In this document: positions 3,214 through 8,755 of the stretch, one piece after another
Numbering within the stretch: position 1 is the stretch's first letter
Layout: each line of letters begins with the position of its first letter
NCBI GenBank assembly: GCA_903834975.1
Contig: CAILKX010000160.1
Coordinates: 1-60,057 of the forward strand
Origin: an uncultured Curvibacter sp.
GTDB lineage: Bacteria > Pseudomonadota > Gammaproteobacteria > Burkholderiales > Burkholderiaceae_C
Direction of reading: 5' to 3'
Length of the DNA stretch: 60,057 nt
Notes under the pieces: generated by a model
Databases searched by the model: none
What the model saw: only the letters and a program-made list of their open reading frames with translations
What the model was told of the DNA's origin: nothing
Position numbers and translations under genes: made by a program

Positions 3214-5406
3214 TCAAATCGCTTGCGGATCCACATCCACCGCCCAGCGAATCAAACCTTTGTGCTCAGGCAAAGCGCGGGTGCTGTGCAGGGTGGCTTG
3301 CCAGGCCGTTAAAAAGGCCTGCAACGCACTGCGCGAGGTGGATTCCAACAGCATTTGTGCCCGTTCCACGTTGGCCACACGTTGCAGGCTCATCGGCACG
3401 GCTGAAAACCGAAAAACCTGTTCGGCGCCCGCCAACTCAGCACCCGCGGCACTCGCGGCGTTCAAAAAAGACTGCGCCACAGCCTGGGTTCGGGCCTCGG
3501 CGCGCACCAAGGCTTGGAAAGTGAAGGGGGGCATACCGGCCTCTTGCCGTTCCTTCAATTGGGCCTCGGCAAAAGCGGGGTAATCATGGGTTTTTAACGC
3601 TTCGAACAAAGGGTGGGTGGGGTGGTCAGTCTGGACCCAGAGTTCGGCCTGACTGCCTTGTTTGGCTAAAAAGGCGGCATCTCGCCCCGCTCGCCCACCG
3701 GCTTGCATGAGCAGGGCAAACAAGCGCTCGGGGGCGCGAAAGTCGCTGGAGAACAAGGCGCTGTCGGCGTTGACCACGGCGACCAAGGTGACACGGCGGA
3801 AGTCATGGCCTTTGGCAATCATTTGTGTGCCCACCAAAACATCCACTTCGGCGTCGTGCACTTGTGCGAGTTGGGCTTCCAAACTGCCTTTGATCTTGGT
3901 GGTGTCCGCGTCGATGCGCACCATTTGAATCGGTTGGCCATTGGGCTTTCTTTGCGTTTGCAATAACGCTTGAAGATGTTCCTCGATTTTTTCGGTGCCC
4001 CGTCCGAGACTGGCGATGTCGAGGTTGCCACAGTCGGGACAAGCCTTGGGAACAGGTTGCGAAAAACCGCAGTGGTGGCAACGCAGGCTGCGGTCGATTT
4101 TGTGAAAAACCCGAAATGCGCTGCAGTGCGGGCATTCGCTTTTCCAACCGCAATCGGCGCAAAACAAAACGGGCGCATAGCCTCGGCGGTTCAAGAACAC
4201 CATCACCTGTTCGCCGCGCGCGATGCGTTCCTGAATGGCTTGCAACAAGGGCGGTGAAATCACCGCGCCTTTGGGTTGGCGACCCATGTCAACCCGGCGC
4301 ACCGTGGGCAACTGGGCCCCTGTGCCCACCCTGGAGGGCATGTGCAATCGCTGGTAGCGACCCCCTTCGTTGGCGGGCCGGCTGTGGTGCCAGCTTTCCA
4401 AGGAGGGGGTGGCCGAGCCCAAAATAACCTTGATGCCCTCGTTTTGAGCGCGGTAAACCGCCAAATCACGCGCCGAATAACGGGCGCCTTCTTGTTGTTT
4501 GTAACTCGGGTCGTGCTCTTCATCGACCACGATCAACTGGAGGTGCGGCATGGAGGCAAAAATGGCCATCCGCGTGCCGAGCACCATGCGCGCCGCGCCG
4601 GTATGGGCCGCGAGCCACGCTTTCAGGCGTTGCGCCGGCGTCATGCCGCTGTGCAAGGAGACGACGGACTGCTCACCCCAAGTCGGCTCGAAGCGTTGCC
4701 GAAAGCGCTGCTCCAATTGGGGCGTGAGGTTGATTTCGGGCACCATCACCAAGACTTGGGCCAAGGGGTCCAGCTCGAGTATGCGCTGCACCGCTTGTAA
4801 ATACACCTCGGTCTTGCCGCTGCCTGTGGCGCCGAACAACAAGAAGGGACCTGGGGACTCTTCAATGGTTTGCAGCACTTGCTGCTGTTCCGCCGACAAC
4901 AGCAGCGCGCCAGAAGTCGGGGCACTTTCTAAAACGGAAGCGTCCGACGGGGTTTCTGTGGATTTGGAAATGGCAATTGACCGTTTGGCCAGGCGCCGGG
5001 CCATTTGCGCGCCATCCAACGCCCGCAACTGCGGCGGCAAGGCGGCCAGGGCCACCTCACCCAGACCGCGCTGGTAATAACGGGCAGCAAAGCCGACCAA
5101 TTGTCGCCAAGCTGCCGATAAAACAGGCAGCTGTCCGGCCTCGCTGAGTGGTCCTGTGATGTGGCGGGCTGCGTAAAGGGACGCCGTGTCAGACGGGCGC
5201 TCCGGCTCGAGGGAGGGGGGGGTATCCCAAACCACGCCCAATGTTTCGCGGGTGCCCAACGGGACGCGAACCAAGGTGCCCGGCGGCAGCGCTTCATCGC
5301 TGAGGTAAGTCAGCGGGCCCGACAGTCCGCTGTGCGCGGGGGTTTGGACAAGGACTGACAGGCGACAACTCATGGGCAAATTGTCCCCCATTTCGACCGC
5401 TGTCAT
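3214..5406 (-). CDS. priA: Primosomal protein N' (PriA helicase); start may be 5373
   Basis: GATGSGKTEVY, DEEHD, zinc-finger CADCGWKSECPHC/CHHCG/CPDCG, GTQMIAKGHDF. Confidence 0.93.
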   Translation of the reverse strand: MTAVEMGDNLPMSCRLSVLVQTPAHSGLSGPLTYLSDEALPPGTLVRVPLGTRETLGVVWDTPPSLEPERPSDTASLYAARHITGPLSEAGQLPVLSAAWRQLVGFAARYYQRGLGEVALAALPPQLRALDGAQMARRLAKRSIAISKSTETPSDASVLESAPTSGALLLSAEQQQVLQTIEESPGPFLLFGATGSGKTEVYLQAVQRILELDPLAQVLVMVPEINLTPQLEQRFRQRFEPTWGEQSVVSLHSGMTPAQRLKAWLAAHTGAARMVLGTRMAIFASMPHLQLIVVDEEHDPSYKQQEGARYSARDLAVYRAQNEGIKVILGSATPSLESWHHSRPANEGGRYQRLHMPSRVGTGAQLPTVRRVDMGRQPKGAVISPPLLQAIQERIARGEQVMVFLNRRGYAPVLFCADCGWKSECPHCSAFRVFHKIDRSLRCHHCGFSQPVPKACPDCGNLDIASLGRGTEKIEEHLQALLQTQRKPNGQPIQMVRIDADTTKIKGSLEAQLAQVHDAEVDVLVGTQMIAKGHDFRRVTLVAVVNADSALFSSDFRAPERLFALLMQAGGRAGRDAAFLAKQGSQAELWVQTDHPTHPLFEALKTHDYPAFAEAQLKERQEAGMPPFTFQALVRAEARTQAVAQSFLNAASAAGAELAGAEQVFRFSAVPMSLQRVANVERAQMLLESTSRSALQAFLTAWQATLHSTRALPEHKGLIRWAVDVDPQAI

Positions 5407-6281
5407 TTGGCCGATTTCACTCCCAATTTACTGCTATTTTCGAAGCTAAGTGCTTGATTTTAGGGGGTCCTTTGACCCATCCAAAATTTATGTGGATAAC
5501 TTTGTTGATAACCTCAGATGACCCATCCAAAACGCTGTATTTTCAAGGCTTTCACCAGAGTGCACAGAAAACCAGCATTCCCAATGACCTATATAAATCA
5601 ACAAGTTAGCGAGGTACAACGCGGTCTAAATGCCGCACCAGAAGAGATCAAAAAGGATCAGGGTTTGCTCTAGAAATGTGCATAAGTAATCATTTTTGGC
5701 TTTCATATAACACCTTTTTTAACCTTTTTGAGCCGAATTTTTGGCTTTGGGTCGGGTGATCAATAAAGGCCGCCACCAAACCGTCGAATTGACCTTTGTT
5801 TGATGGCCTAAACCCTTGATTGATAGGCGCTTATTTTTTGACCGCCATCGCTGTGGATAACTTTGAGGGTAAGTGACCCCAATCAGCGTGAAAGCCAAGC
5901 CCATCAAGGCTTCCATCACGTTGCTGGGAAAATAGGCAAGTTAAAAAACACTGTGTAATCAACAACTTAAGAAAAACCAAAAGCAGCTACAAATTTTTTT
6001 AACAAGATCACAAGGCGGCCCTGGTGGGTGGATAAACCGCGTCCACACACACTTTGGGCGGCCAAAACATGGCGCCATGCGGCTTTCGCCGAGGTTGTGG
6101 ATAACTTTGTTGATATCACGCTTTTGAAAACCGACTTCGCGGCGGTGGCGGCGGCTTGGTTTGGCGATAAAGGATTTTCACCAAATGAAAAACGTTTTAA
6201 ATCAGTGACTTACAAAAAGCCATGCATTCAAAAAATGCAATCCCTTGGGTGGGCTTCCCTCCAAGCCTCTGTGCACAAGTG
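5407..6281. promoter_or_regulatory. AT-rich intergenic region with clustered DnaA boxes (oriC-like)
   Basis: Perfect TTATNCACA boxes (read as TGTGNATAA on + strand) at 5491-5499, 5677-5685, 5852-5860, 6096-6104; one-mismatch copies at 5503-5511, 6027-6035, 6270-6278. Confidence 0.6.
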
Positions 6282-8699
6282 TCAATTTGAATTGAAATTC
6301 AAGGCCTTTTTAACCTCATCCACCGACAAGAGCTCGGACAGCACCACGGGGGCTCGCCCAGGCACATAGGCCACATAGACCGGAACCCCGCTGCGGCCGA
6401 AGCGGTTGAGGGCTTGCGTGATCTCGGGGTCTTGGCGGGTCCAGTCGGCCCGCAGCAGGGCCACCTGGTGTTGGGCAAAATCGCGCAGCAAACCGGCATC
6501 GGCCAGCGTGGCGTGTTTGTTGAATTGGCAGGTCACACACCAGGCAGCGGTGAAGTCAACAAAAACGGGGCGCCCTTGGGCGGCTAACGACTCCGCCAAA
6601 CCGGGGTGCCAGACTTGCCAGCCTCCTGGAGATAAGGGGCTTGCTGCGGAGTTGCCAGGGCCTTGACCTTGATTCTGCTGAACACCGTCAGGCCTTGTCA
6701 CGGCGCTCTCAGAAGCCAAAGGCAAAGACATAGGTGAGGGGTGAATCACCCAGTCACCCCAAGCCCAAACCAGCCCTCCGCACAAGGCGATGAAAACGGC
6801 CATCAGGGTCTGCCGCAAACCCAACGGGCCTGACGTTGTTGAGGTAACGGGCAAGCCCCAAGCCCACAAAGCACCCGCCAAAGTCAACAAAATTCCCAGC
6901 ATCGCCATGACGCCCTCTAAGCCCACCTGTTGGCCCAGGACCCAAAGAAGCCAGAGGACGGTCGCCAGCAAGGGAAAGGCCATGATTTGTTTGAAGGTCT
7001 GCATCCAAACCCCAGGCTTTGGTAAATGGCGAACCCACCAAGGGGCCGCAGCGGGCAGCAACCCCAGCAAAAGATAGGGCAAGGACATGCCCAAACCCAA
7101 GGCAGCAAAAACCGCCAAGGCCGAAGCGGCGGGCAGGCTCAAGGTCAAGCCCAAGGAGGCCCCCATGAACGGGGCGGTGCAAGGAGAGGCAATCAAGACC
7201 GCCAGCACCCCAGAAAAGACCGCGTTCAATAAAGGGTGGCGCCAAGTGACTTGCGTCAGATTGCCGGCCCATTGGCCCTGCCATTCAAAAAGACCGGCCA
7301 AATTCAACGCCATGACGGTGAAGAACACGACCAAGAAGGCCACCACGGCGGGCGATTGCAATTGGAAGCCCCAGCCCAATTGCGCCCCACCGGCGCGCAA
7401 GACCAGCATCAAGCCGCCCAAGGCCAAGAAGGACGCGACCACGCCGAGGCTGTAAGCAAGGCATTGAGCACGAAGGCTTTGCCCCCATGTCGAAGGGCTG
7501 GACGGGGTTGTTTTGAGCAAGCTGAGCAATTTGATGGCCAGCACGGGGAAAACGCAGGGCATCAAATTCAGCACCAAACCGCCCAAAAAGGCACCCAATA
7601 AAGCGCCCAATAATTCCCCCCAAGACAAGCGACTGGCCGTGATCGGTTGGGCGCTGAGGGGGACTGGGTGTTGGTTGCCCACGTCGGCGGCGCGCCATTC
7701 ACCCTGAATGGGCGCTTCGACCCACAAGGCCCCCAAAGGGCTGCTTTGCAAACGCACCAGCCACCGCAGACGTTTTGGACTTTGCTCACGCAAACCAGAC
7801 AAAGGCCACAAGACTTGCCAAGTGGGGGTTGGGGTGTCCCCTTGGACCCACTTCGGTGCCGACTCGGGGTCAAGGGGCACGACAGCCGACAAAACGTCTT
7901 GCATTTCGGGCATCACCCAAAGCGGCTGACCTTGCCAGGCCTTGGGCAATCCACTGAACTGCAACAACAAGTGGTCGCCTTCTAGCGCCGCATGGGTCTG
8001 TACTTGGGGTGCAGAAGCAGGCAGCGCATTTTCTGCCGCTTTGAAAGCGTCGTCGTGCGCCGTGAAGCCGCCGGTGGCCGGCAGCGATAAGCGCAATTGA
8101 ACCGACTCAGGAATGCACTCTGTTTTACAAACAAGCCAAGAGGCGGTGACTTGAACCTCCGACAAGGGGCTTGGTGGTTTCTTTGAACTTTGGCTGGGTG
8201 AGGCGAACTGCAACGGGGCGGTCAACAGCACGGCGTGCCCATAACCATAATTCACGTTGTCGCCGAGTTGAAAAACGTCGGGTGTTGGCCATTGAACAGG
8301 CCCCGCTTGCCAACCAGGGGGCAATGTCCATTTCAGCTGTGTGGCGAGGCCTGAGTCGCCAGGGTTTTTCCAGTAAGTGTGCCAACCAACTTGGGGGGTC
8401 AATTGAACACCCAGCCAAGCGGATTCAGAAGTGCCTGGGGCCCCGTGGGTCAAGCCTGGCGGCACAGCGGCCATGAGCGCCGCACGAACGTGCGGAGTAG
8501 ACGCCACTGACGATACCGAGGCCGCCGAAGCCGCCGAGGCCACCGAGCGGTTGGCCGTCGACAAGTCTGCAGCCTGAACCGGCGTGAAGCAGGCACCCGC
8601 CAAGGTCAATGTCCAAGTCAACGAACAAAAAGTTGACAAATGGCTGGACAAACGGCTGGTTAACAAGGCCAACCCCCTTTTTAGGCGTGTGTAATTCAT
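6282..8699 (-). CDS. dsbD: Thiol:disulfide interchange protein DsbD (ORF to 8747; start likely 8699)
   Basis: N-terminal signal, central multi-TM with NLMPCVFPVLAIK and SPCTAPFMGASLG, C-terminal thioredoxin-like FVDFTAAWCVTCQFN. Confidence 0.9.
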   Translation of the reverse strand: MNYTRLKRGLALLTSRLSSHLSTFCSLTWTLTLAGACFTPVQAADLSTANRSVASAASAASVSSVASTPHVRAALMAAVPPGLTHGAPGTSESAWLGVQLTPQVGWHTYWKNPGDSGLATQLKWTLPPGWQAGPVQWPTPDVFQLGDNVNYGYGHAVLLTAPLQFASPSQSSKKPPSPLSEVQVTASWLVCKTECIPESVQLRLSLPATGGFTAHDDAFKAAENALPASAPQVQTHAALEGDHLLLQFSGLPKAWQGQPLWVMPEMQDVLSAVVPLDPESAPKWVQGDTPTPTWQVLWPLSGLREQSPKRLRWLVRLQSSPLGALWVEAPIQGEWRAADVGNQHPVPLSAQPITASRLSWGELLGALLGAFLGGLVLNLMPCVFPVLAIKLLSLLKTTPSSPSTWGQSLRAQCLAYSLGVVASFLALGGLMLVLRAGGAQLGWGFQLQSPAVVAFLVVFFTVMALNLAGLFEWQGQWAGNLTQVTWRHPLLNAVFSGVLAVLIASPCTAPFMGASLGLTLSLPAASALAVFAALGLGMSLPYLLLGLLPAAAPWWVRHLPKPGVWMQTFKQIMAFPLLATVLWLLWVLGQQVGLEGVMAMLGILLTLAGALWAWGLPVTSTTSGPLGLRQTLMAVFIALCGGLVWAWGDWVIHPSPMSLPLASESAVTRPDGVQQNQGQGPGNSAASPLSPGGWQVWHPGLAESLAAQGRPVFVDFTAAWCVTCQFNKHATLADAGLLRDFAQHQVALLRADWTRQDPEITQALNRFGRSGVPVYVAYVPGRAPVVLSELLSVDEVKKALNFNSN

Positions 8700-8755
8700 G
8701 CTGCTTTGTATTTCCGGGATTCTCCCATCATTTGCAAAACAGGGCATCCTTTAAG

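Follow-up and report, generated by a model that had tools for sequence, protein, structure and literature searches.

A predicted DnaA-IHF-DnaA element conserved upstream of priA in beta- and gamma-proteobacteria, and its putative DARS-type tandem array in an uncultured Curvibacter sp.

A dense cluster of DnaA boxes lies between dsbD and priA in an uncultured Curvibacter sp., and it raises the question of what such a cluster does at this place: start replication, control DnaA away from the origin, or regulate a gene. The window analysed here is the whole stretch of 60,057 nucleotides that carries the cluster, and it belongs to a 2.51-Mb draft genome of 173 contigs. A sequence-only reading of the window had named priA and dsbD as the flanking genes, and Pfam confirmed both:

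3214 to 5406, minus strand: priA, replication-restart helicase, conserved as the gene downstream of the element
6282 to 8747, minus strand: dsbD, the upstream neighbour in this genome

The four reported perfect DnaA boxes TTATNCACA (at 5491, 5677, 5852 and 6096) were all found, on the minus strand, and they are the only perfect copies in the 60-kb window (shuffles contained 0.5 on average and never four). The one-mismatch boxes at 5503, 6027 and 6270 are present as well, all seven boxes are co-oriented, and the 20-mer TGTGGATAACTTTGTTGATA occurs at both 5491 and 6096 as described. The GC content of the gap is 44%. The genome-wide search for box clusters, suggested at that time as a check, placed 4 of the 25 perfect boxes within this 614-bp stretch, while the next densest places hold 2. 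The gap also holds four perfect IHF sites and a fifth with one mismatch, which the sequence-only reading overlooked, as it did the constant distances by which boxes and IHF sites form three repeated units.

All seven boxes resolve into these tandem units, A, B and C, which fill the dsbD-priA gap. In the sense of priA, the layout of a unit is a distal box, 66 or 77 bp, an IHF site, 108 or 109 bp, and a strong box II, with box III 12 bp before box II:

5677 to 5685, minus strand: unit A distal DnaA box TTATGCACA, 0 mismatches, 77 bp before the IHF site
5596 to 5608, minus strand: unit A predicted IHF site TAACTTGTTGATT, perfect YAAN4TTGATW, 109 bp before box II
5503 to 5511, minus strand: unit A box III TTATCAACA, 1 mismatch, 12 bp before box II
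5491 to 5499, minus strand: unit A box II TTATCCACA, 0 mismatches, nearest to priA
5477 to 5485, plus strand: unit A inverted box I position (+14) CCATCCAAA, degenerate, 3 mismatches
5447 to 5459, plus strand: unit A second, inverted IHF site, approximately 31 bp after box II
6027 to 6035, minus strand: unit B distal DnaA box TTATCCACC, 1 mismatch, 66 bp before the IHF site
5957 to 5969, minus strand: unit B predicted IHF site TAAGTTGTTGATT, perfect, 109 bp before box II
5864 to 5872, minus strand: unit B box III position TTACCCTCA, 2 mismatches
5852 to 5860, minus strand: unit B box II TTATCCACA, 0 mismatches
5809 to 5821, plus strand: unit B second, inverted IHF site TAAACCCTTGATT (on the plus strand), 30 bp after box II
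6270 to 6278, minus strand: unit C distal DnaA box TTGTGCACA, 1 mismatch, 66 bp before the IHF site
6200 to 6212, minus strand: unit C predicted IHF site TAAGTCACTGATT, 1 mismatch, 108 bp before box II
6108 to 6116, minus strand: unit C box III ATATCAACA, 2 mismatches
6096 to 6104, minus strand: unit C box II TTATCCACA, 0 mismatches

The core of unit A reads TTATCAACA-AAG-TTATCCACA, the tandem III-II pair, 12 bp apart, that is characteristic of DARS. The IHF-to-II arm is 108-109 bp in all three units, a fixed phase between IHF and core as in DARS2, and the boxes on either side of the IHF site are co-oriented, as in datA. The box I position carries 3, 4 and 5 mismatches in the three units of the window. 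Markov shuffles of the gap contained at least one unit in 1 of 3000 cases. In this genome the core pattern occurs here only, and no unit was found in the other box clusters (contigs C80, C1 and C114, the dnaA locus and the mnmG locus). The second small cluster, on contig C80 (2158-2332), is made up of two perfect boxes and two with one mismatch, and shows no IHF-phased unit. An IhfA homologue of the genome scored 119.7 bits against a cut-off of 120.25. A search for an RNA element gave no Rfam match up to E = 1.

Spectral periodicity of the total box-to-box spacing was weak and uninformative because this distance mixes two arms, and the arms were therefore measured separately. In an open scan from 40 to 140 bp, the distal arm was 65-69, 76-81 or 88-90 bp long in 139 of 146 rows, which are related by descent and do not count as independent events, and none fell at 70-75 bp. 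The named beta-proteobacterial loci among them were unselected for arm length, and the loci from the order and the class were chosen with a 62-82 bp window. The class means of the beta-proteobacterial elements (67.2, 77.7 and 88.4 bp) are about one helical turn apart, and the distance from IHF to box II is nearly fixed (107-112 bp in the same elements). Such steps would be expected of DNA bent by IHF on which two DnaA assemblies have to come face to face.

A PriA protein search provided 80 named loci, nearly all of which have boxes directly upstream of priA and co-oriented with it. Counting the window, 56 of 81 loci contain an exact box pair at a spacing of 172-191 bp, and the IHF consensus YAAN4TTGATW lies between the paired boxes, mostly 107-112 bp before the priA-proximal one. 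A scan for the core (box II preceded at 12 bp by box III, with IHF at 96-113 bp) was positive at 72 of the 79 beta-proteobacterial priA-upstream loci and found nothing in 1.41 Mb of downstream background; more than one core was present at 15 of the 79. The strict pattern (two perfect boxes and a perfect IHF site) matched 96 of the 399 genomes from the order and 64 of the 369 from the class, whereas its reversed control matched none; in the phylum sample the strict pattern was found in only one genome outside the gamma- and beta-proteobacteria. Approximately half of the gamma-proteobacterial elements fetched precede priA, and others adjoin aroE, hemW, rsgA or maeB (neighbours identified by eye from translations). 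As judged from these scans for predicted sites, a DnaA-IHF-DnaA element is conserved upstream of priA in most of the beta-proteobacteria tested and in many gamma-proteobacteria.

A second, inverted IHF site approximately 31 bp after box II was found in 39 of 61 beta-proteobacterial elements (1 in the reversed-sequence control); it is rare in the gamma-proteobacterial elements and has no counterpart in E. coli datA. Tandem amplification was seen in congener G195 (contig C29 3291-4541, L155), with seven perfect boxes in three copies, and Acidovorax sp. A1169 (L011 6746-7795) shows an apparent recent 706-bp duplication of the unit. In one family of the order (L192-L196), several members have the element with no priA within 1.5 kb.

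The core geometry was compared with the E. coli sites. Box III is present at -12 with at most 2 mismatches in all 61 beta- and all 26 gamma-proteobacterial elements. In 22 of the 26 gamma-proteobacterial elements it is accompanied by an inverted box I at +14 that has no more than 1 mismatch; with at most 3 mismatches such a box I is found in 33 of the 61 beta-proteobacterial ones (1.6 on average at other offsets), and 14 of the 61 have a strong inverted box I. This distribution suggests that the inverted box I is probably ancestral but degenerate in the lineage of the window. E. coli DARS1 and DARS2 share the III-12-II-14-I core geometry, and in DARS2 the best IHF match precedes box II by 99 bp and has the orientation seen in the element.

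The explanation towards which we lean, with somewhat better than even confidence, is that three DARS-type (DnaA-reactivating sequence) units stand in tandem in the dsbD-priA gap, and that in these units a distal DnaA box beyond IHF would replace the Fis sites of DARS2. IHF would bend the DNA between the distal DnaA box and the tandem III-II core of each unit, so that DnaA on the distal box would meet the DnaA oligomer of the core in fixed helical phase. With E. coli DARS2 taken as the analogue, such a complex would favour the release of ADP from ADP-DnaA and regenerate ATP-DnaA, which in turn would stimulate or time initiation at a distant oriC. We infer binding of DnaA and IHF at the units, and nucleotide exchange. 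On the same analogy, the element probably reactivates DnaA in a DARS-like manner, although this is not secure. Least certain of all is the direction in which it would act on DnaA, as E. coli DARS needs box I for its activity and this lineage has a degenerate one. At E. coli DARS2, ADP release depends crucially on boxes I and II (PMC4585315). A wider proposal, which we put forward as tentative, is that the common ancestor of beta- and gamma-proteobacteria had a class of DnaA-IHF control loci anchored at priA and distinct from DARS2 and datA. In such a class the distal DnaA box would replace Fis, a phased IHF bend would set the nucleotide state of DnaA, the location at priA would couple the initiator cycle to replication restart, and tandem duplication would tune dosage.

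A unit that acts in the sense of E. coli datA is unlikely. The frame of co-oriented boxes with a same-orientation IHF site between them is common to both (the datA arms are 65 and 97 bp), and it was from this box-IHF-box frame that the element was first identified as a datA homologue. The strict pattern also matches sites with a span of 170-172 bp in one gamma-proteobacterial family (which we take to be Enterobacteriaceae), as expected of datA, and the degeneration of the DARS-specific inverted box I in the lineage of the window points the same way. However, E. coli datA lacks a box III at -12 from its box 3 (6 mismatches at that position), and the offset of its inverted box is +12, whereas every element copy compared has the -12 box and the inverted box is at +14, strong in most of the gamma-proteobacterial elements. 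The datA identification was dropped once the core proved to be III-12-II-14-I. The datA-like, non-origin DnaA locus that the sequence-only reading offered beside its headline of an origin was close: by sequence the element is a member of the datA/DARS group of DnaA-IHF control sites, and within this group the core fits DARS rather than datA.

It is doubtful that the boxes are the operator of a priA promoter through which DnaA and IHF control priA transcription. The nearest unit ends approximately 40 bp before the priA start, and the frequent position upstream of priA in both classes speaks for an operator. Units B and C, by contrast, lie 350-870 bp from priA and keep the phasing nonetheless, and the gamma-proteobacterial elements beside other genes and those of the family with no priA nearby also speak against an operator. 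A weak scan of the gap found no sigma-70-like promoter.

Passive titration of DnaA, with its nucleotide state unchanged, is improbable. Several strong boxes and the tandem amplification in some relatives would suit it, and for E. coli and B. subtilis there are reports of DnaA titration outside oriC (PMC12371093, PMC13220808), which we counted in its favour. Titration requires neither IHF sites nor helical phasing, yet both are conserved.

A relocated chromosomal origin is very improbable, and we rejected it on the GC skew of three complete relatives, in which the switch is at or near dnaA and the element 240-830 kb away. Dense boxes, an AT-rich gap and IHF sites speak for an origin, as does the near lack of boxes at the genome's own dnaA-rpmH gap. 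The single dnaA gene is on another contig, and its gap to rpmH is only about 170 bp long with one perfect box, so the earlier remark that the usual origin was out of view was fair. GC skew in the window does not switch at the dsbD-priA gap. As the genome itself is fragmented, complete relatives of the same family were used for sampled skew. In relative G081 the switch is at dnaA and the element 240 kb away. In relative G129 the skew changes sign approximately 14-18 kb from dnaA, and the priA element, at 336 kb, is within the positive arm. The G129 switch coincides with a dense AT-rich box cluster between dnaA and mnmG (contig C1, L132, 14353-14718 and 17571-18444), so that dnaA does not directly adjoin the origin throughout the family. 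Relative G122 showed a local sign change at the element, and its whole chromosome was consequently sampled: positive skew prevails between dnaA and 2.3 Mb, the stretch between 2.6 and 4.92 Mb is negative, the switch is near dnaA, and the element is at 4.10 Mb. Moreover, the unit is kept at priA across groups with different origin positions. A plausible and better oriC candidate for this genome would be an AT-rich intergenic stretch near mnmG-parAB (contig C127 7560-7770, L152), which carries the boxes TTTTCCACA, TTGTTCACA and TTATCCACA, lies 2.7 kb from mnmG and near parA-parB, and is also present in congener G093.

If the putative DARS-type array is what it appears to be, its interest lies in its distribution. 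What is understood of how chromosomal sites recycle DnaA nucleotides comes almost wholly from E. coli and its close gamma-proteobacterial relatives. Reviews assign DARS2 to gamma-proteobacteria near E. coli and mention briefly that many proteobacteria, or beta- or gamma-proteobacteria proximal to E. coli, have similar sequences (PMC5742627, PMC10380432, PMC8682772); in these reviews the priA location, the distal box, the tandem arrays and the quantised arms are undescribed. Our literature search found no such beta-proteobacterial element; it did not cover the original 2009 description of DARS, so part of this may be known. A conserved counterpart upstream of priA in beta- and many gamma-proteobacteria would make this layer of control older and wider than the literature consulted documents, and the element would be a marker for locating DnaA control in any such genome, testable in Burkholderiales. 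Arm lengths stepped by about one helical turn would be a natural record of IHF bending that phases two DnaA assemblies. Methods based on box density may mistake the clusters at priA for origins.

Among known systems, the DnaA-box clusters of Bacillus subtilis and Streptomyces resemble the element in being chromosomal and outside the origin, where they limit initiation (PMC5742627). They differ in that the literature found describes no IHF-phased architecture for them, and B. subtilis has no IHF (PMC13220808). The element shares DnaA boxes, an IHF site and AT-rich surroundings with oriC, and differs in lying off the skew switch of the complete relatives and in having strong boxes that are all co-oriented, in a repeated unit. 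The likeness to datA is the frame of two co-oriented boxes flanking a same-orientation IHF site with similar arms, and the difference is the lack of a III-II core at datA box 3 and the +12 offset of its inverted box. datA sits downstream of glyVXY.

The core is shared with both DARS1 and DARS2, complete (III-12-II-14-I) in the gamma-proteobacterial elements and as III-II only in the window, where box I is degenerate. As in DARS2, an IHF site in the same orientation lies upstream of the core, at 99 bp in DARS2 vs. 107-112 bp in the element, and both are intergenic. Fis sites (FBS2-3) are essential for the activation of DARS2. DARS2 is also sensitive to IHF-core spacing: in E. coli, shifting its IHF sites by 5 bp towards the Fis sites impaired activity more than a 10-bp shift (PMC4245941). 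The element differs from DARS2 in its co-oriented distal DnaA box, 66, 77 or 88 bp beyond IHF, which stands where DARS2 has its Fis sites; no Fis sites were recognised in the element, the Fis consensus being too loose to score. Box V of DARS2, a full-consensus box, reads as inverted relative to the core and is thus not equal to the distal box of the element. Finally, the DARS sites lie near mutH or uvrB, whereas the element precedes priA, with tandem copies and, in many beta-proteobacteria, an extra inverted IHF site after the core.
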